64,000 nt of DNA from Rugosibacter sp. (GTDB lineage Bacteria > Pseudomonadota > Gammaproteobacteria > Burkholderiales > Rhodocyclaceae): the NCBI GenBank assembly GCA_030645365.1, contig JAUSMB010000041.1, forward strand, positions 1 to 64,000, read 5' to 3'. Every line of letters begins with the position of its first letter. Positions within the stretch are counted from its first letter, which is position 1. Below, one piece after another: positions 1,959-20,416 of the stretch. A program made the position numbers and the translations under genes. The notes under the pieces are model-generated. The model was not told where the DNA came from. It was given only the letters and a program-made list of their open reading frames with translations, and did no database searches.

Positions 1959-1995
1959 TTTGGCAAGTGCATATAAGGTAAATGAAGGAATGAAA

Positions 1996-2430
1996 ATGAC
2001 GGATGTTCGATGCGACCCGATTGGCCCAGTCAACCGATTTATTGTTTGGGTATACAGCGGGAAACGCCCGAGGGTGTTACGGCGCTTAGTGTCGATACTG
2101 TTTCATATTGAGTTGCCTATTCTTCGGCAGCCCATACGTATGGCTCATCCCTACGGGATCATCATCAGTGGTGATGTGGTCTTGGGTAAAAATGTGACGG
2201 TGTTTCAGGGGGTAACAATAGGAAACAAAAGAGATGGGCGAAGAGCGGGGTCGCCTGTCATCGAGGATGACGTCTGTATTTTTCCAAATGCCGTGGTGAT
2301 CGGCCAGATAACAATAGGGGCAGGCGCGATCATTGGAACTGGGGCAGTGGTGGTAAATGACGTGCCGCCTGGCGTGACTGTGGTAGGTAATCCGGCGCGC
2401 CAGATTCATGCAGGAAGCGGGGCAAAGTGA
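1996..2430 (+). CDS. Serine acetyltransferase-like hexapeptide acyltransferase
   Basis: A small left-handed beta-helix acyltransferase related to CysE and the colanic-acid type acetyltransferases. Hexapeptide repeats run through most of the protein: PYGIIISGDVVLGKNVTVFQGVTIG, then PVIEDDVCIFPNAVVIGQITIGAGAIIG, ending in VVGNPAR. It lacks the long N-terminal helical domain of true CysE. Inside a glycosyltransferase operon, a sugar O-acetyltransferase for the polysaccharide is more likely than cysteine synthesis. The ORF track extends to 1909, inside the previous gene. I prefer ATG 1996 because GAAGGA sits six bases upstream; ATG 1990 is the alternative. Confidence 0.75.
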   Translation: MTDVRCDPIGPVNRFIVWVYSGKRPRVLRRLVSILFHIELPILRQPIRMAHPYGIIISGDVVLGKNVTVFQGVTIGNKRDGRRAGSPVIEDDVCIFPNAVVIGQITIGAGAIIGTGAVVVNDVPPGVTVVGNPARQIHAGSGAK

Positions 2431-3602
2431 ATTTTTTACGCATATTGCTGGTACACAATGCCTACCAACTGCGCGGTGGGGAGGATGCCGTTGTCGACGC
2501 TGAACTTGAGTTATTGCGTGGACATGGGCATGCCGTTGAGGTTTTTCAGCGGCATAACGATGAATTGAAGGTCACACCGCGCTGGAAGGCAGCGGTGGAT
2601 ACCGTCTGGTCAACCTGTTCCGTAACCGCTTTGACTGAATCGATTCGTCGGTTTCGGCCGGATGTCGTGCACTTCCACAATACTTTCCCGCTAATTTCTC
2701 CTTCTGCATACTGGGCGGTGAGGGCGGCCGGTTTGCCGGTGGTGCAGACATTGCATAATTTTCGTCTGCACTGTCCTCAAGCGACGTATCTGCGTGAAGG
2801 GCGGGTGTGCGAAGACTGCCTTGGCCATTTGCCATGGCGCAGTGTGCTGCATGGTTGCTACCGTGATTCAAGGGCGCAGTCGGCGGTGTTGACTGGTATG
2901 CTGGTCTTGCATCGTTCAATACTGAACACCTACCGCGACAAGGTAACGCGCTACATTGCGCTCAATGAGTTTTGCCGACGCAAGTTCATCGAGGGCGGTT
3001 TGCCTGCGGAGCGCGTGATGGTGAAGCCGAATTTCGTGGACTCCCCACCACCACCACTTGCCGAGCGTACGAGTTTTCTCTTCGTTGGGCGTTTGTCGGC
3101 CGAAAAGGGTATTGATGTACTGGTTCGGGCCTGGGCGTTGCTGGACATAGCGCCCTGCTTACGGGTAGCGGGAACAGGGCCTGAGGCGGGTTTGCTTGAG
3201 GGGCATCCCGGGCTGATTGCGTTGGGTGCGCTCTCCGAGGAGGCAGTACGAACCGAAATGGGATGTTCGGTGGCGCTGGTGCTACCGAGTATTTGTTACG
3301 AAAGCTTCCCCAGAACGTTGGTGGAAGCGTTTGCCTGTGCTCTGCCTGTGATCGCCAGTCGGCTTGGGCCGTTGATCGATTTGATTGAAGAGGGTGTTAC
3401 CGGCCTGTTGTTCGAACCGGGAAATGCCGCTGATCTGGCGCATAAGTTGAATTGGGCTCACGCACATCCAGAGCGCATGGCAGAAATGGGGCGTAACGCG
3501 CGGGCAAAGTACGAAGCAGAATTTTCTGCAACGCGAAATTACGCACAATTGATCGCGATCTACGAAGAGGCGATTAGTGCGGTTGCAAAGGAAGTTAGAT
3601 GA
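2427..3602 (+). CDS. Glycosyltransferase family 4 protein
   Basis: 391 residues with the classic GT4 start ILLVHNAYQLRGGEDAVVDAE (acceptor-side G-G-E loop), then VVHFHNTFPLISP, a Cys-rich patch CEDCLGHLPW near residue 125, and the donor domain with FVGRLSAEKGIDVL and YESFPRTLVEAFACALPVIAS. The Cys-rich insertion is common in this subgroup of polysaccharide transferases and may bind a metal (inference). Translation starts at a GTG overlapping the previous stop by four bases (GTGA), and the end overlaps the next gene by ATGA. It is an operon member for polysaccharide assembly; the sugars are unknown. Confidence 0.9.
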   Translation: MNFLRILLVHNAYQLRGGEDAVVDAELELLRGHGHAVEVFQRHNDELKVTPRWKAAVDTVWSTCSVTALTESIRRFRPDVVHFHNTFPLISPSAYWAVRAAGLPVVQTLHNFRLHCPQATYLREGRVCEDCLGHLPWRSVLHGCYRDSRAQSAVLTGMLVLHRSILNTYRDKVTRYIALNEFCRRKFIEGGLPAERVMVKPNFVDSPPPPLAERTSFLFVGRLSAEKGIDVLVRAWALLDIAPCLRVAGTGPEAGLLEGHPGLIALGALSEEAVRTEMGCSVALVLPSICYESFPRTLVEAFACALPVIASRLGPLIDLIEEGVTGLLFEPGNAADLAHKLNWAHAHPERMAEMGRNARAKYEAEFSATRNYAQLIAIYEEAISAVAKEVR

Positions 3603-4357
3603 CGATACAAGACAAGCGGGTGAGGGCTCCGGTGCTGGGGGCATCGATTGATGTGGTGGGATGGGATAACGCGCTGTCGCGGATTAGCACATGGGCAGCG
3701 GCGCGTGAATCGCGTTATGTGTGTATATGCAATGTGCATTCTGTGGTAACAGCCGGGCAGGATGTAGCCTTTGGACGCATTGTTGAAGCCGCTGATATGG
3801 CGACGCCGGATGGCGCGCCTGTGGCCAAGATGCTGCGAATACTGGGGTTCTCTGACCAGCAGCGTATCAACGGACCGGATCTTATGTGGAAGTATTGCGA
3901 GCAGGCGGCATTACGCGGGGAGAGCATTTATCTTTATGGCGGGCTCCCCACTACTCTGAAATTATTGCAGCAGCGCTTGAAAGCGGCCTTCCCGGGTTTG
4001 ATCATTGCGGGTGCTTATTCGCCGCCTTTTCGATCAGCGACGGCTGAAGAGGACGAGGCTGATGTGGCCCGGATTAATTCTTCTGGCGCTGGCACCATTT
4101 GGGTGAGCCTCGGTTGTCCCAAGCAGGAACAATGGATGGCCGCCCATCGGGGTCGTGTGAAGGGTGTGATGATCGGTGTAGGTGCAGCTTTTGATTACCA
4201 TGCGGGTACGATTAAACGGGCGTCAAAATGGATGCAGAACGCCGGGTTGGAGTGGCTGCACCGCCTGTGCTCAGAGCCGCGACGTTTGTGGAAACGCTAC
4301 CTGGTGACAAATACTATTTTCATTGCTAGGGCGATGCGGCAATTGCTTCGTTGCTAA
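3599..4357 (+). CDS. WecG/TagA/CpsF family glycosyltransferase (GT26)
   Basis: 252 residues matching the WecG/TagA/CpsF family throughout. Visible features are the N-terminal CNVHSVVTA segment, DGAPVAKMLRILGF, IYLYGGLPTTLKLL, then WVSLGCPKQEQWMAAHRGRV and the conserved end GVGAAFDYHAGTIKRASKWM-x-GLEWLHRLCSEPRRLWKRY. Family members transfer N-acetylmannosamine, mannosaminuronate or glucose to a lipid-linked sugar during exopolysaccharide or teichoic-type polymer assembly. The start overlaps the previous gene by four bases (ATGA). It is the last gene of the polysaccharide operon. Confidence 0.9.
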   Translation: MTIQDKRVRAPVLGASIDVVGWDNALSRISTWAAARESRYVCICNVHSVVTAGQDVAFGRIVEAADMATPDGAPVAKMLRILGFSDQQRINGPDLMWKYCEQAALRGESIYLYGGLPTTLKLLQQRLKAAFPGLIIAGAYSPPFRSATAEEDEADVARINSSGAGTIWVSLGCPKQEQWMAAHRGRVKGVMIGVGAAFDYHAGTIKRASKWMQNAGLEWLHRLCSEPRRLWKRYLVTNTIFIARAMRQLLRC

Positions 4358-4528: not shown

Positions 4529-5095
4529 ATGAATCGTTTTTCGATTTTTGTTTTATGCCTGCTGCTAACTCCGGTGACTTGGGCGGCAGGCTATGGCCCA
4601 TTGGTTATTGAGCGTAGCAGCATCCGCTTTGTATCCAAACAGATGGGTGTATCTGTCGAAGGCGGTTTTCGTCGATTCACTGGGCAACTTGACTTTGACC
4701 CGGCGCATCCAGAGACGGCGCGAGCGCACATTGACGTCGAGCTGGCGAGTGTCGATGCGGGGTCTACCGAGGCGAATGATGAAGTTGTTGGCAAGGACTG
4801 GTTTTTTGTGCGCCAGTTTCCGGTGGCTCGTTTTGACATGCATCGCGTAAAAGCCTTGGGTAACGGTTTGTTCGAAGTGCAGGGTAGGCTAACGATCAAG
4901 AATGTGACGCAAGAGATGGTAACCAAGGCGAGCTTTCATCAAGCAGACGGTCTAGGGTTTTTCACAGGAAACTTTATGATCAAACGACTCGCTTTTGGCA
5001 TTGGCGAGGGCGCATGGGGAGACCCGAGTGTTGTTGCGGATGAGGTTAAGGTTAACTTTGTTTTGGTAGCCAAACCGTTGGCCAGCCAAAAGTAA
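4529..5095 (+). CDS. YceI-like periplasmic lipocalin-fold protein
   Basis: 188 residues with a Sec signal peptide (MNRFSIFVLCLLLTPVTWAAG, cleavage likely after WAA). The body has the YceI beta-barrel pattern: SSIRFVSKQMGVSVEGGFRRFTGQLDFDP, a middle segment DEVVGKDWFFVRQFPVARFDM and an end FMIKRLAFGIGEGAWGD. YceI proteins bind polyisoprenoid or amphiphilic ligands in the periplasm; their function is only partly known. It starts at ATG after GAAAGGAAC and is a single gene with about 170 bases before it. The hairpin at 5133-5166 follows its stop. Confidence 0.85.
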   Translation: MNRFSIFVLCLLLTPVTWAAGYGPLVIERSSIRFVSKQMGVSVEGGFRRFTGQLDFDPAHPETARAHIDVELASVDAGSTEANDEVVGKDWFFVRQFPVARFDMHRVKALGNGLFEVQGRLTIKNVTQEMVTKASFHQADGLGFFTGNFMIKRLAFGIGEGAWGDPSVVADEVKVNFVLVAKPLASQK

Positions 5096-5231: not shown

Positions 5232-5281
5232 GCAATTTCGCGTGTGCATTAAGCCGGTATGAAAAACCGGCTAGACCCGAC

Positions 5282-5680
5282 TCAAGCTGTGGGGCCACCT
5301 TGCTTTATCCAGTCGGCAAGATCCCAATATTCGCGCCATTGGGTAATCTTTCCTTCAGCATTCAGTTCAAACACGCCGTTGACGGGAAGATCGAGTTTGC
5401 CTCCATTTTTAAACCGAAAATAGTCAACGCGCTCGGTAAAAATAACCGCGCCGTTTGCGGCAATATTGAGCACATCGAAGGTAATGCTATCCAGCATGGA
5501 CCAAAAGGGCGCAAGAAAATCTCCAATGGCTTGATGCCCCTTGAGTGGCGCCCACGGCATGTTGTGGTAGATGGCATCTTCAGTGAAATAGGGGAGTAGT
5601 ACCTGGTTAGAGCATTTGCTCCAGTCAGCGCAGAAGTTGCGAACGATGTCGATATTGCGTTGTTCAAGGGTGCTTTGCAT
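5282..5680 (-). CDS. Limonene-1,2-epoxide hydrolase-family protein
   Basis: 132 residues of the SnoaL-like/LEH fold. Unlike generic SnoaL proteins it keeps the residues known as the epoxide-hydrolase active site of the Rhodococcus enzyme: a Tyr-x-Asn (AIYHNMPW), an Arg-x-Asp (TERVDYF) and a late Asp (REYWD). Family enzymes add water to an epoxide in the cytoplasm without a covalent intermediate. It is the last gene of the monooxygenase operon, 47 bases after the alcohol dehydrogenase, with GAGGAT upstream of its ATG. The context suggests it handles an epoxide made by the diiron enzymes (inference). A non-catalytic NTF2-like role is the alternative. Confidence 0.78.
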   Translation of the reverse strand: MQSTLEQRNIDIVRNFCADWSKCSNQVLLPYFTEDAIYHNMPWAPLKGHQAIGDFLAPFWSMLDSITFDVLNIAANGAVIFTERVDYFRFKNGGKLDLPVNGVFELNAEGKITQWREYWDLADWIKQGGPTA

Positions 5681-5727
5681 GATGAGATATCCTCGTTTTT
5701 GAAATGAACAGCATATCTTAGTACGTA

Positions 5728-6789
5728 CTAGGGCTTGATCAAGACTTTCATTGCGCCATCGGTTTTGTGAAAGAACGTAGCAAAAGCTTGATCAACATCC
5801 GACAGTGAAAACGTATGTGAGAAGTATTCTTCGGGTTTGACAACACCACGCTCCATCATACGCAGGGCTTCCCACATATAGGGCTGCACGTTGGCAAAAC
5901 CATTCATGTGCAGCGTGATATCACGCAAGAATACATCAGCGAGATTCAGATTGAATTTATCATCGCAGAATACGCCAAGAGCCGCGATCGTTCCTCCGGG
6001 GCGAATCAGGTCAAGACTCATCTGCAAGGTTTCGGGTAGCCCAACCATTTCGATGACTTTGTCAAAGCCACGCCCCCCTGTGACTTCAAGCGCTTGTTCT
6101 TTCCATCCCTCGTGCGACGAGTCAAACGTTGCCGCCCCTTTTTTCGCTGCAATGGCCAGTCTTTTGGGCAAGGCATCCACGGCGATCAATCGCCCTGGTC
6201 CTCGGTGCAGAGCAATATCCAGCGCCATCAAGCCAGTCGGCCCGCACCCGATCACCGCAACCGTTTCACCCACCTGAATATTGGCCAACTCATTGGCGAT
6301 AACTGCTGAAGGAAGGTTGCAAGAGAGTGTGATTGCTGCACTATCGGAAATTCCTGCAGGGACTTTCATGGCATGGCCGTCTGCATAAGGCAACACCAGT
6401 GTTTCCGCATGCGTACCATTCAAGCTGCCAAACGGCACCCCAAAGCCATACACTGCTTTGTGTGTGGTTTCGCAGTGTGCTGTTTGGCCCACTTTGCACA
6501 TGTAGCAGTCTCCACATGAGGCCGAGTAGCCCATGCTGATTCGATCGCCTTTCTTAAAGCGACCAACTGTTTTACCTACTGCAAGCACCTCGCCGATCAG
6601 TTCATGCCCGGTTTGTGACTTTCCCTTTTCCATGATGCCATCAAGCGCTCCACGGTATAGATGCAGATCCGATCCACAGATCGAAGTTGCGGTCACCTTG
6701 ACTAGCACTTCATGATCGGCACGCAGCGTCGAGTCTGGAATCGTCGTGCATCGAATATCTTGCGGGCCAAAATAGACTGCTGCTTTCAT
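5728..6789 (-). CDS. Zinc-dependent medium-chain alcohol dehydrogenase
   Basis: 353 residues, the usual MDR length. The N-terminal GroES-like domain carries the catalytic-zinc motifs (SICGSD and TGHELIGEV) and the four-cysteine structural zinc lobe CGDCYMCKVGQTAHC near residues 93-107. The Rossmann domain has VAVIGCGPTGLMALD, and the acid that selects NAD sits in IAVDALPKR. It oxidises an alcohol or diol, or reduces the matching carbonyl. It follows tmoE closely in the monooxygenase operon, with a GAGGGACC ribosome site, and precedes the epoxide-hydrolase-like gene, so a diol or aryl alcohol from the upstream steps is a reasonable substrate (inference). Confidence 0.88.
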   Translation of the reverse strand: MKAAVYFGPQDIRCTTIPDSTLRADHEVLVKVTATSICGSDLHLYRGALDGIMEKGKSQTGHELIGEVLAVGKTVGRFKKGDRISMGYSASCGDCYMCKVGQTAHCETTHKAVYGFGVPFGSLNGTHAETLVLPYADGHAMKVPAGISDSAAITLSCNLPSAVIANELANIQVGETVAVIGCGPTGLMALDIALHRGPGRLIAVDALPKRLAIAAKKGAATFDSSHEGWKEQALEVTGGRGFDKVIEMVGLPETLQMSLDLIRPGGTIAALGVFCDDKFNLNLADVFLRDITLHMNGFANVQPYMWEALRMMERGVVKPEEYFSHTFSLSDVDQAFATFFHKTDGAMKVLIKP

Positions 6790-6867
6790 GAGGTCCCTCT
6801 TGTTTTATCAAGTTTATTAAATTGACGGGTGATGATTGGGTTTAGTCTGAACGGATTGATTGGCTGA

Positions 6868-7854
6868 TTAAAGTGCCAGAGAAAGCCGAAAATCCCGTGT
6901 TGCTTGTTTGGCGTCATGTGCGGCATCGGGAACTTCAGGTGTGGCAGCACAAAAAGCGTCTATGGCTTTGTCAGCCAAGGGTTCCCATTTGGCAATCCAC
7001 TGTTTGATCGCTGCAGCATTACCCTCTTTTTCCAGAGTCATTTTGACCAGCGCTGTCGTCCAACGACGATGGCGGACTGCATCCATCAACTGATTGTCCG
7101 TCAGCATGCCCAATAAAGTATCGCCATTGTGACGAGCAGCTTCACCCAGTTTGCGCAACACTGCTTCCTCAATCGCTGGTTTGGTAACCAAATTCAAGGC
7201 GACAAAAGCTTCACCCCAATCCCAGGCAATTAACAGTTTTTCCATTAATTCGCGAAAGCCTTGCCATGCGGGATCAGTCTCCCAATAGGCGCATTCATCC
7301 ACACCAAAGCCTTTGTCGGCAAAGGTGAGCGAAAGCTCTTTGGTGCGATAGGCCGTATGACTTAACCAGCGGAAGGAATCAGCCGCTTGAAAAGCGGCGC
7401 AGTTGGTAATGGTGCTGGCAGGCGACATTTGCTGTATGTATGCCGATGCCATTTGCACGGTATGAAATAAGTATCGTGTAGGGGTATAGAGACGTGCCAA
7501 TGTACCGGCCCATTTGGAATCAAGCGCTTTGTCGTGCTCGCGCTCATTGAACTGGTTGAATAGGCCATGAATATAAGTTTCCTGGCCATCTTGCAGCATG
7601 TTGTAGGTGCGATAGACAAGCTCATCGGGATCGCGAAACGCATTCCAGTCGTCGTGCTGCAAGGGGCTTGCATCGCGATATTGCTTGTACCACCGATTCA
7701 TCGCGACTTCCGGATCCAGGTCGTAGGGCGCGCATCCTTTCCGCGTGTTATACAGAATGTTGACGGAAACAATTTCATATTCGCTTGGCTTGCGACGCCT
7801 TTTAGCCAAATGACTCCAGGTTTTCAGGGGTTTTAAAACCTCGATTTCGCTCAT
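6868..7854 (-). CDS. tmoE: Toluene monooxygenase hydroxylase beta subunit (TmoE/TbuA2-like)
   Basis: 328 residues, the normal length for the beta subunit of the four-component toluene monooxygenases. It starts with the family pattern LKPLKTWSHLAKRRRKPSEYEIVSVNILYN and contains YRDASPLQHDDWNAFRDPDELVYRTYN, typical of these beta chains. Beta subunits share the ferritin-like helical fold of alpha but lack the iron ligands; they scaffold the (alpha-beta-gamma)2 hydroxylase. AAGGAG precedes the ATG. It is the fifth gene of the TmoABCDE-like set; a reductase (TmoF) is not found after it, which is unusual for this family. Confidence 0.9.
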   Translation of the reverse strand: MSEIEVLKPLKTWSHLAKRRRKPSEYEIVSVNILYNTRKGCAPYDLDPEVAMNRWYKQYRDASPLQHDDWNAFRDPDELVYRTYNMLQDGQETYIHGLFNQFNEREHDKALDSKWAGTLARLYTPTRYLFHTVQMASAYIQQMSPASTITNCAAFQAADSFRWLSHTAYRTKELSLTFADKGFGVDECAYWETDPAWQGFRELMEKLLIAWDWGEAFVALNLVTKPAIEEAVLRKLGEAARHNGDTLLGMLTDNQLMDAVRHRRWTTALVKMTLEKEGNAAAIKQWIAKWEPLADKAIDAFCAATPEVPDAAHDAKQATRDFRLSLAL

Positions 7855-7884
7855 GAGGAAGCTCCTTGAATTTAATTATTCAGT

Positions 7885-8193
7885 TTATAAATGCTTGGCG
7901 TGGTAAAAGCGGATGTATTCAACTTGGGTATCGATACGTCCGGCAAAAGAGGCGAGTTCGATTTCAATTTCACTCATGCTGAATGGCCGCCCCAGCATTT
8001 CTTCAATGGTTTGTCGTTTAAGAATCATTTCATCGCTGGTCTGGATGCGCAAGTAGGCAACTTTGTCTTCAACTTTGATGATCTTGTCAGGATTATCAAT
8101 TTCTGCCGCTTCCACAACAGCTTGCGCTAGTTCACCCTGGCGCATCACGGGGCCGACATTATTATTTTGGGATACCTCTGCTGCAGTGCTCAT
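7885..8193 (-). CDS. tmoD: Toluene monooxygenase effector (coupling) protein, TmoD-like
   Basis: 102 residues, the size of TmoD/TbuV. The motifs VGPVMRQGELAQAVVEAAEIDN, DKVAYLRIQT and EMLGRPFSMSEIEIELASFAGRI match the MmoB/DmpM effector family. The protein carries no cofactor; in the family it docks on the hydroxylase over the diiron site and raises turnover and regiospecificity. It lies between tmoC and tmoE with a GAAAGGAAG ribosome site. A second effector for the other monooxygenase (dmpM-like) is at 13703-13972. Confidence 0.9.
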   Translation of the reverse strand: MSTAAEVSQNNNVGPVMRQGELAQAVVEAAEIDNPDKIIKVEDKVAYLRIQTSDEMILKRQTIEEMLGRPFSMSEIEIELASFAGRIDTQVEYIRFYHAKHL

Positions 8194-8257
8194 TTTTCTT
8201 CCTTTCTAAGGTGGGGATCAACCCACCACGGTTGCAAATCCATTGGATCGTAGCGAC

Positions 8258-8593
8258 TCAAACAGGCGTAAATAAGGGCACCACGCCTTCAGTGTCAACA
8301 AAGATTTCTTCGTTCTCGATGCGCACAGGATATTTCGCCAGTTGGCAATCATCCGGATTGATGCCTGTTCCAGTTTTGGCATCAAATACCCACTGGTGTG
8401 CACGGCAAATGAGCGATTTGCCATCGAATTGACCTTCCGCCAGCAAAATATCCTGATGCGGGCACATCCCTTGGTAGGCGCGAATATCTCCTCCCTCGAG
8501 ACTTAACAATAAAACTTCCTGATCATTGACCGAGTAGGATTCCATCTCGCCTTCCCACAGGTCATCCAGTGTGCAGACTTTTTTAAAGGCCAT
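8258..8593 (-). CDS. tmoC: Rieske-type ferredoxin of toluene monooxygenase (TmoC-like)
   Basis: 111 residues from ATG 8593. The ORF track starts at 8623, but the family begins at MAFKKVCTLDDLW. The Rieske [2Fe-2S] ligands are visible as C-P-H (MCPHQDILL) and C-R-A-H (ICRAHQW), about 18 residues apart. The protein passes electrons from a flavin reductase to the TmoA diiron hydroxylase in the cytoplasm. Because no TmoF reductase is encoded, its electron donor is probably the DmpP-like reductase at 10542-11609 (inference). It begins five bases after the tmoB-like stop. Confidence 0.9.
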   Translation of the reverse strand: MAFKKVCTLDDLWEGEMESYSVNDQEVLLLSLEGGDIRAYQGMCPHQDILLAEGQFDGKSLICRAHQWVFDAKTGTGINPDDCQLAKYPVRIENEEIFVDTEGVVPLFTPV

Positions 8594-8598
8594 AGTGT

Positions 8599-8853
8599 TT
8601 ATTCCCAGATGACTTCGATGCATTCCATCGGTTTCAAGCCGGATTCGCTCACTTTGAGGGTACGTGGCAAGGGTTCCTTGGCGCCTTGCTGACGTACCCG
8701 CATGGTGTGGCCAGGACGTGCGGGGACACGACGGCCAACGGAATGATGAGCTGCCGCCGCTGCGACTTCGTCCATGGTATTTTCAGTATCCACAGGCAGA
8801 AGCTGCAATACAAAATCCCCTTGAAAATTGGACGTTAAGGGAAATAATGCCAT
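8599..8853 (-). CDS. tmoB: Toluene monooxygenase hydroxylase gamma subunit (TmoB-like)
   Basis: 84 residues, matching the small ubiquitin-like gamma subunit of T4MO-type hydroxylases (MALFPLTSNFQGDFVLQLLPVDTE..., then VGRRVPARPG and the end MECIEVIWE). The subunit binds the outer face of the alpha chain and has no cofactor. CGAGGA lies nine bases before the ATG. About 120 bases separate it from tmoA; I see no promoter or hairpin there. Confidence 0.88.
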   Translation of the reverse strand: MALFPLTSNFQGDFVLQLLPVDTENTMDEVAAAAAHHSVGRRVPARPGHTMRVRQQGAKEPLPRTLKVSESGLKPMECIEVIWE

Positions 8854-8973
8854 TTTTAAATCCTCGAAATATAGTTAAAAATAAAGTTAATCAGGCGGTG
8901 AAGGTGGGTGAAGGCGATGACAACAAGTCAAGCTTTCATCCACGGGTCAATCACCAGCTGGCAAGGATGTGTC

Positions 8974-10476
8974 TCAGGCAGCTGCTTTTTGGCGAGCAGC
9001 ACGAATTTTTTCAACCCAGGCGTAGTTGTGTGCATCGTCGCCGATTTCTCCAGGTGCCAATGCCATGTACTGCAGGCCACCGGCGAGATTCATTGGCTGA
9101 ACCATGCCAGCCAGGAAACGATCAATTAACGATAAATGATCTTTGTAACGTTCTGGTTCTTGCTCAAAACACCACTGACAGCCTTCAGAGCAGAAATGGT
9201 ACGTCCGCCCTTTGTAATCAAGCGGGAAGTCACGGACTTTCCAGGTCGGGCCAGGGGTGGCATTGATCGGTAGCTGACACATATTGCATACCACCGGTAG
9301 CGTCTCGGGGTAGGATAATTCGCGTTTTCCCGCGAGCAAATTGTCCGTGATGACGTCCCAGTTGGTTCCCCAGGTAGCATTCCAGCCGGGATATTTTTCT
9401 TCCAGCCATGTGCGCTCTTCGGGTGAAACCCCCGCAGCTGGGTTCCACCACACGGTTGACCGCCAGTACCATACGCCCAGGTGCATGCCGTGGTGCTGGT
9501 AGTTGAGCTCTTCTAGAAATTGATCCCAGAACCAGGGTTTATCCAGGCCAAGATCAATTAATGAGCGCTCAAACTGCGTCACAATCCATTCCTCCATGAA
9601 CTCTTTGAAGGATTGTTTTCGATGCTCTAGCGGAGTGTAGTAATCCATCATTGGGCCGGTAAGCACAGAGAAAAGTTTCCAGGCTCGCCAGATACCAATA
9701 TCAACCATTTTTTGTGCTTCGGCTTTCTTCCCGTTTTTAATCAGGATTGCAACCAGTGGAGCGCCAATCTGGGCGTGTCGTGATTCATCCGTTTGCACGC
9801 TGGAGATCAAGTTGGAAAACGTCCAGTCTCCTGCCTCGGCAGCATCAGCTGCCAGGCCTAGAAACTGCATATTGGTAAACCCTGTTTCAAAGGCAAAGGT
9901 CAACATGAGTGCCGTATCAACGGCACCGCGAGTCGTCATCATGTCATCAAACATGTGGCGCGAGGCAAGAATGGCCCATTCGTTGGTATCGTAGGCTTTA
10001 TGTGCCCAATCAAACTGGCGATCTTTGGGGCAATATTCATGAGGAAAGTAAAGCTGAATTTGGCCATGACGAATTTCATCCAGCATACCCATGGTGGCCA
10101 TGTTGCGCATGCCAGGCGCTTTGCCAAAGCGCGCCATGCGGGCTTCAGCCGTCGAGGCTGAGTATTCAGCCCGTGCAATTGCACCAAAGTGTGCTTTCAG
10201 GACACTAAGCCAGCCGGGATCAGCATTTTCAAACATGTTGCTGCGCTCAAGTGCTGCCTTGACAGAATACGCGCCGGCATCTTTTTCCCGCTGAATCTTG
10301 ACGTATTCGGGATAGGTCTGTTTATAGGGCTCGTCATATGATTCCCATTCTGGCAAGGGAATCCCCATGCTGCCTGACATTTGTGGAGGAAACAACTCAT
10401 CTTCTTGAACGTAGGTGGGCTGCCAGTTGGTATTGCGAGCAATGTCATACCAGTCCAATCTGCCTAAATTTGCCAT
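8974..10476 (-). CDS. tmoA: Toluene monooxygenase hydroxylase alpha subunit (TmoA/TbuA1-like)
   Basis: 500 residues, the length of T4MO-type alpha chains. Both diiron motifs are intact: E-Y-S-A followed by MLDEIRHGQIQ, and later SVQTDESRHAQIG. The C-terminal CNMCQLPI...CSEGCQWCF zinc-type cluster, typical of this family, is present. The enzyme hydroxylates aromatic rings and epoxidises alkenes using O2. The residue just before the first glutamate ligand is Ala (ARAEY), where T4MO has Gly103, a position known to steer regiospecificity; this suggests an altered product pattern (inference). AGAGGAG precedes the ATG. It follows the DmpP-like reductase by 65 bases in the same operon. Confidence 0.93.
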   Translation of the reverse strand: MANLGRLDWYDIARNTNWQPTYVQEDELFPPQMSGSMGIPLPEWESYDEPYKQTYPEYVKIQREKDAGAYSVKAALERSNMFENADPGWLSVLKAHFGAIARAEYSASTAEARMARFGKAPGMRNMATMGMLDEIRHGQIQLYFPHEYCPKDRQFDWAHKAYDTNEWAILASRHMFDDMMTTRGAVDTALMLTFAFETGFTNMQFLGLAADAAEAGDWTFSNLISSVQTDESRHAQIGAPLVAILIKNGKKAEAQKMVDIGIWRAWKLFSVLTGPMMDYYTPLEHRKQSFKEFMEEWIVTQFERSLIDLGLDKPWFWDQFLEELNYQHHGMHLGVWYWRSTVWWNPAAGVSPEERTWLEEKYPGWNATWGTNWDVITDNLLAGKRELSYPETLPVVCNMCQLPINATPGPTWKVRDFPLDYKGRTYHFCSEGCQWCFEQEPERYKDHLSLIDRFLAGMVQPMNLAGGLQYMALAPGEIGDDAHNYAWVEKIRAARQKAAA

Positions 10477-10541
10477 AATTTTTCTCCTCTAAAAGGGTAT
10501 GGTTTGTATGTAACGGGTAATACAAAAAATCGGGGTGATGA

Positions 10542-11609
10542 TTAAATTTTTCTAAATAAAGGTGAGCGTACCTGCTGCGCATCGGCAGCAGAAATAAACT
10601 TCTCAAAATAAATATCATCTTCAAACAAGCGGCCTTGCATCAAGGCGTTAATACAGGCATCGATCATTAATGGCGGGCCGCATAAATAGGCTTGGTTACC
10701 TACAAATCCATCAGGGTAGGTCGCGGTGGCCGCATCATGAACATATCCACGGTATCCGCCCCAGTCAGACTCGGCAGGCTCGTTTGACAAGGCGGGGATA
10801 TAACGGAAATTTTGGTGCGTTGCTGCGAGTGCAACAAACTCATCGTGGTAATACAACTCTGCTCGATTGCGTTGGCCGTAAATGAGTGTGATGGGAAGAT
10901 CCCAGCCATTGTTCAGCAAGTCCAGAATCATCGAGCGCGGGCTGGATAAACCCGAGCCACCTGCCATGAAAACGAGTGGTTTGCGCGCAGATTGGTGTAC
11001 GAAAAATCGTCCATAAGGTCCTTTCACCGTAACACCATCGCCGACTTTTAGTTGATTGTGAATATAGGTCGTGCCTTCGCCTCCTGCGACAATGCGTACA
11101 TTGATTTCAATTTCTTTCGCAGTAGAAGAAAGCGATGAAGGTGCATTGGCCAGAGAGAAAGCCCGCTCGATGCCTTTGCCGGGCACGACAAACTGAATGT
11201 ATTGCCCTGCCTGAAAGTGAATCGGCTCGTCCAGCTCGATGAATACGCCTTTGATGGTGGGCGTCAAATCAACAACCCGGCTCACCGTGCCCGGAAAATC
11301 TCGCACAGGGATTTGCTCAGCGTCGGTGTCTTCTTCTATTTCAGCTTCGATGGTGACATCGCTATTGAGGGTGGCACAGCAAGCCAGAGTCATGCCTTCA
11401 TCGCGTTCGAAATCCATGAGCGCAAAAGAAGAGGCTTGACCATGCTCGATCTCGCCATCCAAAACCTGTACTTTGCAGGTGCCGCACAAGCCATGTCCAC
11501 AAGCATTGGGAATATAAATGCCTGCTCGCAAAGCAGCATCGAGAATGGTTTGACCCTCTTCAATTTCGAGCGTTGCGCCCATGGGTTCAATGGTCAGTTC
11601 GTAAGTCAT
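10542..11609 (-). CDS. dmpP: Phenol hydroxylase reductase, P5 component (DmpP-like)
   Basis: 355 residues with the three expected domains. An N-terminal plant-type [2Fe-2S] ferredoxin has ligands in CGHGLCGTC and the later LACCATL; an FAD domain has RAFSLANAPSS; an NAD(P)H domain has FMAGGSGLSSPRSMI and YLCGPPLMIDACI. It moves electrons from NADH to the diiron hydroxylase. It is the only reductase in a cluster that encodes two diiron monooxygenases, so it may serve both (inference). The ribosome site is weak (AGAGGA about 14 bases upstream of the ATG). Confidence 0.93.
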   Translation of the reverse strand: MTYELTIEPMGATLEIEEGQTILDAALRAGIYIPNACGHGLCGTCKVQVLDGEIEHGQASSFALMDFERDEGMTLACCATLNSDVTIEAEIEEDTDAEQIPVRDFPGTVSRVVDLTPTIKGVFIELDEPIHFQAGQYIQFVVPGKGIERAFSLANAPSSLSSTAKEIEINVRIVAGGEGTTYIHNQLKVGDGVTVKGPYGRFFVHQSARKPLVFMAGGSGLSSPRSMILDLLNNGWDLPITLIYGQRNRAELYYHDEFVALAATHQNFRYIPALSNEPAESDWGGYRGYVHDAATATYPDGFVGNQAYLCGPPLMIDACINALMQGRLFEDDIYFEKFISAADAQQVRSPLFRKI

Positions 11610-11708
11610 GCGGTGCGTTTTTTCCTCTTGTCTTTAAAAGAAAGAAGGGCAGCATTTTGCACATATGCCGCACTTCACCCTGTTTTAAAGAATAGTTAAA
11701 GGTTACGT

Positions 11709-12068
11709 TCACAAGCCAGCATTGTTCAGGCCTTTAAGTTCTGGCGTGATAAACAGAAGGTAGTCTTTGTGGCCTACCTTGTTTTCAGCCAGCGATTTGT
11801 CGAGATCCGGTTGCCACGGTTGGTGATCTTTCTCCCATTGCACAGTATTCCAGTCAATTTTTTCAGCATCCGGGTGAAAGGCAATGGACGGCACAATCCG
11901 CGTCATGATTGCTTCACGAAGCGTCATGGCAGGTGGCAGGGCAACGGCAAACGGCGCAGAAACGAGTACGTGCCGATCCCAGCAAAAATTGACCAGAATA
12001 TTTCCGTGGAAATTTTTTACCTGGTCGCGCGGGGCAAACTCGTAAGGCCCCAAAGCAATGACTGACAT
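11709..12068 (-). CDS. dmpO: Phenol hydroxylase subunit P4 (DmpO-like)
   Basis: 119 residues matching the P4 gamma-type subunit of multicomponent phenol hydroxylases (SVIALGPYEFAPRDQVKNFHGNILVNFCWDRHVL..., PPAMTLREAI, ending KVGHKDYLLFITPELKGLNNAGL). It forms part of the (P1-P3-P4)2 hydroxylase and, by family knowledge, carries a structural zinc. AGGAGG precedes the ATG perfectly. The hairpin at 12093-12115 separates it from dmpN. Confidence 0.9.
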   Translation of the reverse strand: MSVIALGPYEFAPRDQVKNFHGNILVNFCWDRHVLVSAPFAVALPPAMTLREAIMTRIVPSIAFHPDAEKIDWNTVQWEKDHQPWQPDLDKSLAENKVGHKDYLLFITPELKGLNNAGL

Positions 12069-12092
12069 ATTTAACCTCCTGTAGTTAGCAAG

Positions 12093-12115
12093 GGCTGCTG
12101 CGTGTTGCAGCAGCC
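12093..12115 (-). terminator. Intra-operon hairpin between dmpN- and dmpO-like genes
   Basis: A perfect nine-base-pair stem (GGCTGCTGC / GCAGCAGCC) around the loop GTGTT, directly after the dmpN-like stop on the minus strand. It has no T-run, so it is more likely an mRNA-processing or stability element that sets relative subunit levels than a full terminator (inference). Confidence 0.45.
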
Positions 12116-12136
12116 GGAATCAATGACTAATGCGAT

Positions 12137-13690
12137 TTAATTCTTTGATGCTTGACCACGCCACATAGCAAAGTTGCGCTGATCTTCGGAGCCTTCAAAG
12201 TCGCCGTTATCTCGACCCAGGTTGTATTTGAAGTATTCCAGCACAGCCTTGAGCGGATCAAAATCAGGTGCGGTGGGATCAACATCCGGGTTAAAGCAGT
12301 TGCCCTGGTAAATCTGATTTACCGGCAACCAGCTTTGTACAAACTTTTCTGGCTCGTTGCCGAAGATTTCCTGGCAATGGTCAGAGCAGAAGACATATTT
12401 TTCATCTTTGTGCACGGTTTCACGGTGAGAAATTTTGGTCGGGTCACCCGGCTCGGTGAAGCACAGTGGAATCTGGCAGGTGGTGCACAAGGTTGGCAGC
12501 GTGCCTTGGTAAACACGTTCGCCACGCGCATGCTTGTCGCGTAAAAATTCCAGACGTGGCCGATAGTATTTATCGAAGCTGTCAGGGTATTTTGCTGACA
12601 ACCAGTCGAGTTCTTCATCCGTTAGCGACCATGTATGGAACGCAGCCGCACCACCATATTCGTAGAAAAGTAGCCAGACTTGGTGGGAGAGATGATCTTT
12701 TGCTTCACAGGCATCTGCCCATCCTTTTGGAGGACGAATGCCGTAACGGGCAAGGTCGCGGAACAGTGCGCCACCATTTTCTTCGGCATAGATTTCCCAA
12801 GCCTCCTTCCAGCTCATCACCCGTTTGGGCAGCATGTAATCCATCATCATGCCTACCAGCGCGAGTACTTTGCTACCACGCCAAAACCATTTATCGATCC
12901 AGCCTTGAACGATAGGCACATTTGCCGGGTCTTGTTCCAGCAGAAACTTGATGGCCTCAATACCGAGTGTCATATGACGGGATTCATCGGACTGTGCTGA
13001 AAAGCCAAATGTGACCGTACTCATGTCACCGTTATAGGCGGCACCCGACATGAAGGGAACAAACAAGAGATTCGTCAGTACATATTCAAATGAAAAGCTG
13101 ATCGCGATCAGAAATTCAAAGGGGCCGGAGGTTAGCGCATCTTCACCAAACGATTTGGGAACCGAGAGGTACCACACACGATCCCACATATGCCGTTGGC
13201 TGTGGAACCCGTTGTAGTACTTGTTGTAGTTGGAAATTGAGTGCGCCTGGGTTTGATAATGACGTAATTCATCGACAGCTTGCATCTGGCATGCGACGCG
13301 CGAAGCTTCACCGCGAAAATGTCGGCCAGCACGTGCGAAGCCTTGCACCACATAATTTTCAAGCGGACTCACGCCTTGCCAGAATAGCTTGATGGCACTG
13401 AGGTAACGTGCATCCGTGATATTCAGGTGACCATTGTTTTGCGCAAAGGCCTCGATTACTGCGTACAGTTTGCGATCTTTTTCGCCTTGATATTTCCAGT
13501 AGGCATCCATTGTTAACCGAAAGGGATCTACCCACTTGTCCCAGTCGTGAATCTTGATTCCTTCGTATTTGTCATAAGGAAATACGGCATCGGCCGATTG
13601 GTAGGTTGGCTCCCAACCCAATCCGCGTGTCATATGCGCGTAGCGTTCTTTGATGCCGAGCTTTTTCTTGGTAGCTTTCATGTCCATCAT
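12137..13690 (-). CDS. dmpN: Phenol hydroxylase large subunit P3, diiron oxygenase (DmpN-like)
   Basis: 517 residues, the normal size of P3. The diiron ligands are visible in SPLENYVVQGFARAG, QAVDELRHYQTQ and SAQSDESRHMTLG. The C-terminal CTTCQIPL...CSDHCQEIF cluster is the zinc-type site shared with TmoA. The enzyme hydroxylates phenol to catechol with O2 in the cytoplasm. It begins MMDMKATKKK after AGGAGAC, 12 bases after the dmpM-like stop. It is distinct from the TmoA-like chain 1.7 kb further on: the two represent different branches of soluble diiron monooxygenases in one operon. Confidence 0.94.
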   Translation of the reverse strand: MMDMKATKKKLGIKERYAHMTRGLGWEPTYQSADAVFPYDKYEGIKIHDWDKWVDPFRLTMDAYWKYQGEKDRKLYAVIEAFAQNNGHLNITDARYLSAIKLFWQGVSPLENYVVQGFARAGRHFRGEASRVACQMQAVDELRHYQTQAHSISNYNKYYNGFHSQRHMWDRVWYLSVPKSFGEDALTSGPFEFLIAISFSFEYVLTNLLFVPFMSGAAYNGDMSTVTFGFSAQSDESRHMTLGIEAIKFLLEQDPANVPIVQGWIDKWFWRGSKVLALVGMMMDYMLPKRVMSWKEAWEIYAEENGGALFRDLARYGIRPPKGWADACEAKDHLSHQVWLLFYEYGGAAAFHTWSLTDEELDWLSAKYPDSFDKYYRPRLEFLRDKHARGERVYQGTLPTLCTTCQIPLCFTEPGDPTKISHRETVHKDEKYVFCSDHCQEIFGNEPEKFVQSWLPVNQIYQGNCFNPDVDPTAPDFDPLKAVLEYFKYNLGRDNGDFEGSEDQRNFAMWRGQASKN

Positions 13691-13702
13691 GTGTCTCCTA
13701 AA

Positions 13703-13972
13703 TTAGTTTGCCCATGCAACGGTTAAGTAGTCATCATCTTCATCAATGTGACCACTAATTGAAATTAGATTGACATGCAATTGCTGGATATTGAAGGGTT
13801 GTCCGGTTAAATCTTCTACCGTGGCACGGTTAAGTGTCATTTTCCCTTCCGCTTCGACGCGTACCATGGCAGGGGATTCCTGAGCTACGGCATGGGGGTT
13901 GTCTTGCAAGAGCGCTTCCACGATGGGGCGCGCTTCTTCATTGGCTTGCACAATAATAAAAACCTTAGACAT
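13703..13972 (-). CDS. dmpM: Phenol hydroxylase effector P2 (DmpM-like)
   Basis: 89 residues, typical of the cofactor-free P2 activator. KVFIIVQANEEARPIVEALLQDNP and LNRATVEDLTGQPFNIQQLHVNLISISGHIDEDDDYLTVAW match the DmpM family. It binds the P1-P3-P4 hydroxylase and is needed for turnover. GGAGG precedes the ATG, and the gene sits between dmpL and dmpN with short gaps of about 12-14 bases. Confidence 0.92.
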   Translation of the reverse strand: MSKVFIIVQANEEARPIVEALLQDNPHAVAQESPAMVRVEAEGKMTLNRATVEDLTGQPFNIQQLHVNLISISGHIDEDDDYLTVAWAN

Positions 13973-13986
13973 TCGAGTGCCTCCGT

Positions 13987-14982
13987 TTAAGCTGCGATGC
14001 CAAGCTTCTTGGCGCGCGCATTGAATTGTTCAATCACTTCATTCATCATGGTCTCTTGGCTATTGCCAAACGCCATGGCCGCGATCGGCGTGAGCGCCGT
14101 CACCGCGCGATCACGCCAGGTGGTTGTCCATTGGCTGATCAGCGCCTTGTTTTGTTCCGATTCAGCCACGGCTACTTTGAGCACGCCATCAACCCATTTG
14201 CTGCTCTGACCAAACCACATGGGCATAAATGAGGTCAGCATGGCCACGGCACTCCCTCCGCGCGAGGTGAGTGTGTCATCCACGAAGCGGTCATAAATGA
14301 GCGGGTAGAGCAAGCCATCAAAGACAAAATTTTGTACCAAGAATATTTCCATGAAGTCGCGGACAACGAAAGAATCTTCGATCATGTGACGCAGGGGTTG
14401 CCATGCCTCGCCTGACATCCATTGGGCTTTGGCGGCGTCGAGGACTTCAGGTTCATCCAGCAGCAGGCCGAGGCGGGTGAGGTACTGCGCGATCCCCAGG
14501 TTATCCATGGCTTGCATGATGGCCGGGGAAATAAGCACCTCAGAAAAAGCGCGCGAGCAGAGCTCGTTGTTGTTCATGTTGGCGCCCCAGGCGGCGTGAC
14601 GCAACGGCAACAGAACGTCTAGCGAGAGTTTTTTTACATCGTCAGGCAAGCTCAAATGCAGGTAACGTGATTCGACAAAATCAAAATTGGCTTCTTGCGT
14701 TTCCTGCTCCTTGGCACGCTGTATCGTCCAGGAGGCGTAGTAAAGCTGGCGTGGATCTTTCAAGTCATACCATTCACGCATTTGAATGGCGCTACGCCGC
14801 GGATCGAATAACTCAAACTCAGGCTCCCAGGTGGGGCGGTAATGCATGTTGGTTGTTGCTTGAACACCCAAAGTGGCTTCTTGATAACGGGATGCAGGTT
14901 TATCACCGCCGATGAGTTCGGCCACATTGGTAAATGTGTTGCGCAATGGCTTGATTTCTACTGCCTTGATTTCTACCGACAT
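13987..14982 (-). CDS. dmpL: Phenol hydroxylase subunit P1 (DmpL-like beta subunit)
   Basis: 331 residues matching P1 of multicomponent phenol hydroxylases: KPASRYQEATLGVQATTNMHYRPTWEPEFELFD, RSAIQMREWYDLKDPRQLYYASWTI and a long helical remainder. P1 is the beta-type chain that dimerises with P3. It lacks iron ligands. AAGGAGGG precedes the ATG. Gene order K-L-M-N-O-P is that of the dmp/phe/tom operons. Confidence 0.92.
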   Translation of the reverse strand: MSVEIKAVEIKPLRNTFTNVAELIGGDKPASRYQEATLGVQATTNMHYRPTWEPEFELFDPRRSAIQMREWYDLKDPRQLYYASWTIQRAKEQETQEANFDFVESRYLHLSLPDDVKKLSLDVLLPLRHAAWGANMNNNELCSRAFSEVLISPAIMQAMDNLGIAQYLTRLGLLLDEPEVLDAAKAQWMSGEAWQPLRHMIEDSFVVRDFMEIFLVQNFVFDGLLYPLIYDRFVDDTLTSRGGSAVAMLTSFMPMWFGQSSKWVDGVLKVAVAESEQNKALISQWTTTWRDRAVTALTPIAAMAFGNSQETMMNEVIEQFNARAKKLGIAA

Positions 14983-15036
14983 ATTGCCCTCCTTGAAAAA
15001 TCTGAATTATTGGTTTCGTGAAGTGTTTGCAGCGTT

Positions 15037-15306
15037 TTATTGATCAAAAGTACCAGGAGTCTTACTGCCTTTAGCGACATTTCGTAGCGTCCAGTCAAAT
15101 GCGCTTTCGCTTTTTTGTTCACCTTCAGGCAGAAACTCCACATTGTTTTCAGCACAGAAAATATGAAAATCTTTTTCTTTAAGCATGAGTTCGGCAAAGT
15201 ATTCTGTATGTCCAATGGCAAAATGAAATTCGATAAATCCATCAGCGCGACGCTGAATAACGCGCACGTAGCGTTTGGCGATATCAGGATTTTCCGAACT
15301 GCTCAT
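15037..15306 (-). CDS. dmpK: Phenol hydroxylase assembly/activation protein P0 (DmpK-like)
   Basis: About 89 residues of the P0 family (RYVRVIQRRADGFIEFHFAIGHTEYFAELML, KDFHIFCAENNVEFL). In Pseudomonas DmpK is not needed for catalysis but helps insert iron into, or activate, the hydroxylase. The ORF track uses a GTG at 15309; I prefer ATG 15306 because GGAGG ends only one base before the GTG. It is the first gene of the operon, about 45 bases downstream of the predicted sigma-54 promoter. Confidence 0.88.
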   Translation of the reverse strand: MSSSENPDIAKRYVRVIQRRADGFIEFHFAIGHTEYFAELMLKEKDFHIFCAENNVEFLPEGEQKSESAFDWTLRNVAKGSKTPGTFDQ

Positions 15307-15350
15307 CACTCCTCCATGGATGTTTTGTAATTGTGACTTTCTAGTTGATA

Positions 15351-15366
15351 TGCAGGTTATGTGCCA
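15351..15366 (-). promoter_or_regulatory. Sigma-54 (-24/-12) promoter of the monooxygenase operon
   Basis: On the minus strand the sequence reads TGGCAC-ATAAC-CTGCA, which fits TGGCAC-N5-TTGCA with one mismatch and the strict GG/GC spacing. It lies upstream of the dmpK-like gene and next to a divergent sigma-54 activator gene, exactly where a DmpR/TbuT-controlled promoter is expected. Confidence 0.85.
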
Positions 15367-15520: not shown

Positions 15521-17311
15521 ATGAAGCGGCAGCCTCAACCGAAGACTTTGGGAGGTTTTAAAAATAACCAGCTACCTGGTTTTGATGATCTGATAGCACG
15601 GTTGCATCTTGCGCCTGAATCCGGCCAGATATGGCTCGATGGCAAGCGCATGTTTATGCTGCATTTGTCAGCATTTTCTGCTTTACGGCGTGAGCTCATT
15701 GAAAGTCTGGGCATTGATCGGGCGCGTGGATTGCTCACGCGGATGGGTTATCTGGCCGGGAGTAAAGATGCAGAGCTGGTAAATAGCGTGCGCAAAGACA
15801 GCAGCGTGTATGACGCATTCTCAATCGGACCCCAGCTTCATGCCCTGGAGGGTGTGGTCAGAGTGGAGCCGGTGGTCGTTGATGTTGATGTGGCGCGCGG
15901 CCGGTTTTACACCGAGTTTTTGTGGTGGGGCTCTATTGAAGATGAGGCGCATGCCGCAGATTATGGGGTATCGGCAGACCCGGTTTGCTGGATGCAGATT
16001 GGATATGCCTCAGGTTACAGCAGCGCATTTTTTGGCCGACGTGTGGTTTACCGGGAGGTGGAATGCGGTGCGATGGGTCACGATGCTTGCCGCATTATTG
16101 GCAAACCGGTAGATGACTGGCCAGATGTTCAAGAGGATTTACGCTATTTTGATGCGCAACCCTTTGCGAATCGAAAAATTATTAGCCTGGGTGACCAAGA
16201 GACGGCTGTTTCCGGAAATATCGAGCAAGTGTCTGCGGTAGAAAATGCAAATAAGTCGCGCTTTAAGGGGCGTCAGCTCATTGGTATTTCTGCCGCTTTC
16301 AATAGCGTATGCCACATGATCGAGCGGGTGGCAGATACGACGGCACCTGTTCTTCTGCTCGGCGAGACAGGCGTAGGTAAAGAGATTTTTGCGCAAACGC
16401 TACATGCTGTGAGCCCCCGCGCAGAAAAGCCGTTTGTTGCGATCAACTGTGCGGCGATTCCCGAGTCACTCATCGAGACTGATTTATTCGGGGTGGAGAA
16501 GGGGGCTTTTACCGGTGCTACCATTTCGCGACCGGGCCGTTTTGAGTTAGCAGATACCGGATCCCTGTTTCTCGATGAAATCGGCTGCTTAAGCCTGGCG
16601 GCACAAGGCAAACTGCTGCGCGTATTGCAAGAAGGTGAGGTAGAGCGTGTCGGTAGCACGAAGTCGCGCCATCTGGATGTGCGCATCATCGCAGCAACCA
16701 ACATTGATCTTGAACTGGCCGTTGCCAAAGGCAACTTTCGGCAGGATTTAATGTTCCGCTTGAATATTTTTCCGATTGCGATTCCTCCGTTGCGCGAGCG
16801 GAGGGAAGATATTCCTATTTTGGCGGATTACTTTTTGCGGCGTTATTGCGACATCCATAAACGACATCGCACGGGGTTCACCGAGCGGGCGCTTGATGCG
16901 CTGCTTTCCTATGAATGGCCGGGGAATGTGCGCGAGGTTGAAAATATCGTGGAACGCGCGATTATTCTTTCTGCTGAAGGTGGTGCCATGGATATTGGAC
17001 ACCTTCCTGCTGCGGTAGCTGCCGGGGTGGGTTTGCCACGACCGGCGCTACCAATGACGCGAGTGGCACCGCAGCCTGTTTTTGCTAGTTCAACGCCGGG
17101 TGTTGTTAATGATCAGCCCATATCTGAGATGGATGTTGTAAATCATGAGGGGGGATTGAATTCCATCACGGCGGTTTCACTGCAAGCGGCGATAGAACAG
17201 CATCGTGGCAACCTGTCTGCCGTGGCCAGAGCCTTGGGTGTTACCCGTCCGCGCGTGGCATATCAAGCAAAGAAGCTTGGGTTAGAGTCGCAGTTGCGGC
17301 GCAGGACATAA
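15521..17311 (+). CDS. DmpR/XylR/TbuT-family sigma-54-dependent activator
   Basis: 596 residues in the standard order. The aromatic-sensing XylR-N domain (about 20-140: IWLDGKRMFMLHLSAFSALRREL) is followed by a V4R vinyl-4-reductase-type segment (about 140-210) with VECGAMGHDACRIIG cysteines. An AAA+ domain (about 250-490) has Walker A GETGVGKE, the sigma-54 contact loop GAFTGATIS, LFLDEIG and the R-finger region. A C-terminal Fis-type helix-turn-helix reads NLSAVARALGVTRPRVAYQ. It should sense phenol or a related aromatic and activate the divergent operon. The ATG at 15521 has no clear Shine-Dalgarno, implying low expression. Its promoter region is AT-rich with repeated ATTGATAT. Confidence 0.93.
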   Translation: MKRQPQPKTLGGFKNNQLPGFDDLIARLHLAPESGQIWLDGKRMFMLHLSAFSALRRELIESLGIDRARGLLTRMGYLAGSKDAELVNSVRKDSSVYDAFSIGPQLHALEGVVRVEPVVVDVDVARGRFYTEFLWWGSIEDEAHAADYGVSADPVCWMQIGYASGYSSAFFGRRVVYREVECGAMGHDACRIIGKPVDDWPDVQEDLRYFDAQPFANRKIISLGDQETAVSGNIEQVSAVENANKSRFKGRQLIGISAAFNSVCHMIERVADTTAPVLLLGETGVGKEIFAQTLHAVSPRAEKPFVAINCAAIPESLIETDLFGVEKGAFTGATISRPGRFELADTGSLFLDEIGCLSLAAQGKLLRVLQEGEVERVGSTKSRHLDVRIIAATNIDLELAVAKGNFRQDLMFRLNIFPIAIPPLRERREDIPILADYFLRRYCDIHKRHRTGFTERALDALLSYEWPGNVREVENIVERAIILSAEGGAMDIGHLPAAVAAGVGLPRPALPMTRVAPQPVFASSTPGVVNDQPISEMDVVNHEGGLNSITAVSLQAAIEQHRGNLSAVARALGVTRPRVAYQAKKLGLESQLRRRT

Positions 17312-19063: not shown

Positions 19064-19160
19064 CTTTTCCCCCTGGTGCATCAAGAATTGGTTGCCTGCC
19101 ATCAAGTGTTTATAGCGTTTATAGCAACTGATGACAGGTCAGCGTGTGCGACTTGGCGAT

Positions 19161-19586: not shown

Positions 19587-19678
19587 AATATCTTCTCCTC
19601 GTTTTTTTAGTTATACACGATGCGGCAGGCAGCCCCAGATTTTCTGGTTTGGAGCCACCTGCTGCTTTTAGCGATGCC

Positions 19679-20296: not shown

Positions 20297-20416
20297 GAAA
20301 CGTTCTCTCCTGTGTATGTAAAGTGAAACGATGTTTCAACGGGACAAGTCTGCACATTCTGCAGAGCCAATTGAGGTTTTTATTCTATAGCGTATCCTCG
20401 TGCCAAAGTAGGCAAA

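Follow-up and report, generated by a model that had tools for sequence, protein, structure and literature searches.

Rugosibacter is a bacterium of groundwater and soil, and the DNA analysed here (the window, 64,000 nucleotides in all) is part of one contig (C50) of a 2.36-Mb genome in 87 contigs. The open reading frames and their Pfam matches revealed a run of 13 genes on the minus strand that leads from dmpK (15309) down to a gene resembling limonene-epoxide hydrolase (LEH; 5282), in the order dmpKLMNOP, tmoABCDE, alcohol dehydrogenase (ADH) and LEH. A preliminary description of this DNA had put the LEH gene and a zinc ADH at the end of a monooxygenase operon, and both are indeed real open reading frames on the minus strand and the last two of the run. 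The features of the operon and its control region are as follows:

15521..17311, plus strand: XylR_N/V4R/sigma-54 activator of the DmpR/MobR type, divergent from the operon (Pfam)
15351..15366, minus strand: sigma-54 promoter-like site TGGCACATAACCTGCA, one mismatch to TGGCAC-N5-TTGCW, 42 bp before dmpK
15037..15309, minus strand: DmpK-type protein, gene 1 of the operon (order conserved; named by position)
13987..14982, minus strand: DmpL-type beta subunit (order conserved; named by position)
13703..13972, minus strand: DmpM-type effector (order conserved; named by position)
12137..13690, minus strand: DmpN-type phenol hydroxylase alpha subunit (Pfam PF02332 and conserved order)
11709..12068, minus strand: DmpO-type subunit (conserved in L004, L006, L072 and L087; named by position)
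10542..11609, minus strand: DmpP-type reductase, the sole reductase of the operon (Pfam Fer2, FAD_binding_6 and NAD_binding_1)
8974..10476, minus strand: TmoA/TouA-type hydroxylase alpha subunit (PDB matches 1t0q and 3dhg; di-iron ligands)
8599..8853, minus strand: TmoB-type subunit (Pfam PF06234)
8258..8623, minus strand: TmoC-type Rieske ferredoxin (Pfam PF00355)
7885..8193, minus strand: TmoD-type effector of the MmoB/DmpM family (Pfam PF02406)
6868..7854, minus strand: TmoE-type hydroxylase beta subunit (Pfam PF02332)
5728..6789, minus strand: zinc-dependent ADH, 353 aa (Pfam, motifs, relatives beside toluene monooxygenase operons)
5282..5680, minus strand: LEH-family protein, 132 aa, last gene (Pfam PF07858, PDB alignment, residue table, AF2/Foldseek)
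5252..5272, minus strand: GC-rich 7-bp hairpin without a U run, just 3' of the LEH stop codon (folding z -1.7; sequence reading)

Two sites in the 64 kb, the promoter-like site included, differ from the sigma-54 consensus at no more than one position, and the divergent activator found its top NCBIfam match in the MobR model, yet scored under that model's cut-off. No intrinsic terminator was found in the gaps of 78 bp between TmoE and ADH and 47 bp between ADH and LEH, and the hairpin beyond LEH is a possible, weak end of the transcript. The operon, which would start the breakdown of toluene, benzene and phenol, is best read as a sigma-54-controlled BTEX/phenol operon with a phenol hydroxylase and a toluene/o-xylene-type monooxygenase, to which two tail genes of different history are joined. 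It had been proposed that the operon also handles an alkene or an arene oxide, but no single alkene is indicated; the two monooxygenases, the XylR/DmpR-type activator and a nearby TodX-type porin speak instead for BTEX/phenol catabolism. Among the operon genes at 5282-15309, the open reading frames and Pfam matches held no aldehyde dehydrogenase, and no other diol-using gene was found there.

The surroundings of the operon are of two kinds. Beyond its end lie plus-strand genes of glycosyltransferase/polysaccharide type and YceI-like type, named from sequence alone (1-4357 and 4529-5095 of the window). On the other side, a minus-strand set at 17510-21733, ending beside dmpR, comprises a TodX/FadL porin, a GST, a polyketide-cyclase-like protein and an HpaB-type hydroxylase. 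This GST (19679-20296) is a few genes away from the operon and is 61% identical to the GST of the btx cluster discussed below. GSTs 85-86% identical to it were seen in the neighbouring regions of L086 and L114, and L088 has the GST, the cyclase-like protein and HpaB in the same order as the window.

TmoA was best matched in the PDB by TouA of ToMO (1t0q, 836 bits) and by T4MO (3dhg, 816 bits). It has the complete set of di-iron ligands (E104, E134, H137, E197, E231 and H234), along with I100, A107, T201, Q204 and F205. Besides oxidising aromatics, enzymes of this group epoxidise alkenes (McClay et al. 2000, as cited in PMC13188929), in agreement with the alkene epoxidation that the preliminary description ascribed to TmoA-type enzymes. 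There is no tmoF in the fused dmp-tmo operon (6868-15309), where DmpP is the only reductase, and hence the toluene monooxygenase must depend on either DmpP or an unlinked reductase. A single reductase, DmpP, may serve both monooxygenases; a TmoF-like gene (51%) is located on contig C63 of the same genome.

The ADH is made up of the Pfam domains ADH_N and ADH_zinc_N, and its motifs (catalytic CGSD and GHE, the structural-zinc CX2CX2CX7C, and GxGxxG with the Asp of the NAD type) indicate one catalytic and one structural zinc and the use of NAD. Its closest relatives among plasmids, 41-76% identical, are encoded next to toluene monooxygenases: in Paraburkholderia aromaticivorans BN5 (76%; tmoABCDEF-gstA-adh), Marinobacter salarius (70%; adh-tmoABCDEF), Ancylobacter polymorphus ZM13 (54%) and Rhodococcus sp. 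WAY2 (41%), with no LEH in any of these four stretches. The more distant Rugosibacter genome G113 likewise has dmpKLMNOP, a catechol 2,3-dioxygenase gene, tmoABCDEF and the ADH (77%), followed by meta-cleavage genes, and lacks LEH. The ADH recurs as a companion to toluene monooxygenases, and its presence in this type of operon is independent of LEH; it therefore cannot be taken for a chain's diol dehydrogenase and was rejected as evidence for a diol pathway. With this, the main support is gone for the proposed chain of monooxygenase, epoxide hydrolase and diol dehydrogenase, of which only the epoxide-handling step survives, as the leading hypothesis. The ADH would most likely oxidise alcohols that the monooxygenase makes from its substrates or their side chains.

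The assignment of the last gene to the limonene-epoxide hydrolase family, made earlier from the letters alone, was borne out by several lines of evidence. Its product scored 56.1 bits against the Pfam LEH family PF07858 (curated cut-off 24; E 6e-15), and its best solved relatives are the limonene-1,2-epoxide hydrolases 5aif (1.6e-20) and 1nww (7e-18). An AF2 model built on a nine-sequence alignment (mean pLDDT 89.7) shows the LEH fold, in which helices pack against a curved sheet of six strands, and the top PDB match of this model in Foldseek was Tomsk-LEH 5aif (TM 0.83/0.88, rmsd 1.7 A).

In the Rhodococcus enzyme (Re-LEH), the catalytic water is held by Tyr53 and Asn55 and deprotonated by Asp132, while the epoxide oxygen receives its proton from Asp101 (PMC9763437, PMC7383614). 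Alignment with 1nww equates Y38-H-N40 of the window protein with the water-binding Tyr53 and Asn55, and R84-V-D86 with Arg99 and the acid Asp101, so that the Tyr-x-Asn and Arg-x-Asp noted earlier are kept. The general base is another matter: Asp132 (in WRDYFD) is aligned to Glu117 (in WREYWD), and the claim that the catalytic Asp is also kept was thus wrong. D120 was considered as the catalytic Asp and rejected, the gap-free alignment placing it on Asp135 of Re-LEH. In a table of 38 aligned homologues, Tyr, Asn, Arg, Asp and Glu117 are present in all seven Rugosibacter copies (76-100% identical), and every one of the 23 other LEHs whose aromatic-x-Asn/Arg-x-Asp set is intact has Asp as its base. 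Glu is found at this position in six further proteins of the table only, each without the water-binding Asn. In this sample, the change of Asp to Glu at the base of an otherwise complete LEH site is unique to Rugosibacter. The Rugosibacter LEHs form a single clade (99/99) separate from the other Glu-bearing proteins, in a tree whose deep branches are weak. With a pairwise dN/dS of 0.04-0.13, the gene is under purifying selection, from which it follows that Glu117 is a fixed trait of a maintained protein; a decaying pseudogene was rejected on the same low values. Since a Glu at the base is otherwise confined to relatives that lack the Asn, the activity could differ or be absent, and the window protein is best filed as a homologue within the LEH family, its catalytic set being a variant one, rather than as a proven LEH. 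In the LEH-family proteins at L125, L126, L130 and L132, Leu-x-Ser replaces Tyr-x-Asn and Glu replaces Asp132; they form a subfamily whose active site differs.

The LEH gene is present in seven of nine Rugosibacter genomes, and a sample of 299 genomes of the family held no match above 42% identity outside the genus. The full order of phenol hydroxylase, toluene monooxygenase, ADH and LEH is found on single contigs at L004, L006 and L072 (the last in the single-contig genome G149), and L003 and L087 are consistent with it at contig ends. In every genome that shows both genes on one contig, LEH adjoins ADH on the same strand, with a gap that ranges from 47 to about 126 bp. No LEH was found beside a toluene monooxygenase outside Rugosibacter among the loci from 200 relatives and 369 genomes of the class, and plasmid-borne LEH relatives (up to 47%) are found in unrelated contexts. 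As the synteny is confined to one genus, linkage is weak evidence of joint function. In G203 (L088, 3513-3656), 11.3 kb are missing, from the 3' region of dmpR as far as the last 17 bp of ADH. Foreign sequence fills the junction, next to which the LEH gene is intact; the deletion could alternatively be an effect of assembly. The downstream YceI gene of G203 is also broken, by transposase-like sequence. In G224 (L086, 1-10100), TmoA breaks off some 140 residues from its start, and an IstB-like fragment and genes for efflux/ABC transporters come next. The phenol hydroxylase part is intact, so the toluene monooxygenase half was apparently lost by insertion.

A close known counterpart is the btx cluster of Cupriavidus cauae PHS1, in which the toluene monooxygenase genes are followed by btxV (GST) and adh, in that order (PMC10394343), and to which the BN5 cluster is nearly identical. 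The btx clusters of C. cauae PHS1, P. aromaticivorans BN5 and C. metallidurans CH34 share with the window a phenol-hydroxylase-type and a ToMO-type monooxygenase and the same ADH downstream of the latter. However, the btx operon includes tmoF, meta-cleavage genes and a GST and lacks LEH, whereas the window operon has LEH but neither tmoF nor meta-cleavage genes; in the tails of BN5 and PHS1 the GST is placed between tmoF and adh; the window has LEH in the tail and its GST outside. The earlier statement that no standard operon ends in this way is accordingly true of LEH and not of the ADH, a toluene monooxygenase-GST-ADH end having been published. The component parts and the general design were already known, and the open-access literature yielded no mention of LEH in an operon for a toluene or phenol monooxygenase.

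The nearest published system is ibc cluster 1 of Mycolicibacterium sp. ELW1, in which a group 2 SDIMO and an epoxide hydrolase, together with an ADH and an aldehyde dehydrogenase, deal with isobutylene (PMC13188929, PMC12442371). Cluster and window both join a group 2 SDIMO (TmoABCDE in the window), an epoxide hydrolase-type gene and an ADH, but IbcK is an alpha/beta-hydrolase (Asp117/Asp256/His284), a fold unrelated to that of LEH, and the aldehyde dehydrogenase has no counterpart in the window operon. Isobutylene is a growth substrate there, and no phenol hydroxylase is named in cluster 1, whereas the window operon has one. The isoprene and propene pathways also begin with an SDIMO, after which isoprene oxide is joined to glutathione, or the epoxide to CoM (PMC13188929); such conjugation by transferases differs from the hydrolysis that the window protein would employ. 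As for the LEHs themselves, Re-LEH (Rhodococcus erythropolis DCL14, 1nww) and Tomsk-LEH (5aif) have the fold and Arg-x-Asp in common with the window protein, and the Tyr-x-Asn of Re-LEH is likewise that of the window, in contrast to the Trp-x-Asn of Tomsk-LEH. We know of no aromatic monooxygenase operon that includes either enzyme.

Given the LEH family and fold of the last gene product and the epoxidation of alkenes by the TmoA/TouA-type group, the explanation we favour, which stands only just on the probable side, is that a BTEX/phenol operon, complete with the ADH usual for its kind, was extended in one genus by an LEH that hydrolyses epoxides made by the monooxygenases. The two broad-range monooxygenases would form these epoxides from alkenyl, arene or chlorinated-alkene co-substrates, and LEH would most likely hydrolyse them to diols. 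In this mechanism, Tyr38 and Asn40 would hold the water, Glu117 would deprotonate it, and Asp86, positioned by Arg84, would protonate the epoxide oxygen; the reaction, the role of Glu117 and the substrate we infer from what was observed of the protein, namely its family and fold, four of the five catalytic residues, a conserved gene order and purifying selection. LEHs of soil bacteria are known to hydrolyse styrene oxide (PMC7429986). An LEH acting on epoxides here would fill the role that glutathione and CoM transferases have beside other alkene monooxygenases. The conserved order and the selection on a clade with invariant Tyr-x-Asn and Arg-x-Asp and a fixed Glu117 count for epoxide clean-up, and so do the equivalent tail of the nearest operons (tmoF-GST-adh), GSTs being a class of electrophile-handling enzymes, and the related GST of the window. 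Against it stand the Glu base, the one-genus synteny, the persistence of LEH in G203 after the operon deletion, and the lack of an aldehyde dehydrogenase or diol-using gene. A more specific version, in which aromatic catabolism has in the Glu-base LEH a step of its own for opening the arene or vinylarene oxides (PAH oxides among them) made by the toluene and phenol monooxygenases, would place an LEH-based epoxide step in an aromatic monooxygenase operon for the first time, but is decidedly improbable.

The main rival is a dedicated pathway for growth on an alkene or vinylarene, in which the toluene monooxygenase would epoxidise, for example, styrene or indene, LEH would open the epoxide and the ADH would oxidise the diol. 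The gene order is compatible with this and the ibc cluster is a published analogue, but the want of genes that would use the diol, aldehyde dehydrogenase included, counts against it, as does an ADH not tied to LEH; moreover, the phenol hydroxylase and the DmpR-type activator indicate aromatic, phenolic substrates, and we regard such a pathway as unlikely. The replacement of Asp by Glu might instead mark another reaction on the LEH fold (an isomerase, a cyclase, or lactone/enol hydrolysis of an aromatic-pathway intermediate) or a binding role, which would suit both the company that Glu keeps elsewhere in the homologue table and a fold that hosts many reactions, ketosteroid isomerase, SnoaL and polyether cyclases being among the matches. 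Yet the remaining four catalytic residues are retained in all seven Rugosibacter copies, and Glu can act as a base, Lsd19/LasB of the same fold having the catalytic pair Asp38/Glu65 (PMC4648038), so that this too appears unlikely. That LEH came to lie after the operon by chance, as a passenger with no functional tie to the monooxygenases, would account for its survival in G203 and for the variable gap to ADH; its constant strand and place beside ADH, the terminator-free gaps and the strong purifying selection make this very improbable.

Epoxides are toxic by-products when toluene monooxygenases are used to clean up alkenes and chlorinated ethenes, and laboratory strains have been built with a toluene monooxygenase and an epoxide hydrolase against them (Rui et al. 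2004, as cited in PMC12442371). If epoxide clean-up is the true function, a natural operon that pairs the two would be a ready-made version of such strains and would also provide a small hydrolase that needs no cofactor. The fixed Glu at the catalytic base also offers a simple test of the tolerance of the LEH active site.

Other genes for aromatic compounds are present in these genomes. Relatives of catechol 2,3-dioxygenase were seen on contigs C66, C63 and C36 of the source genome. A second tmoABCDE set, with a TmoA of 76-79% identity, occurs in several Rugosibacter genomes (L073 of G149; L082-L085); at L073, where ADH and LEH are absent, it adjoins extradiol and ring-hydroxylating dioxygenases.
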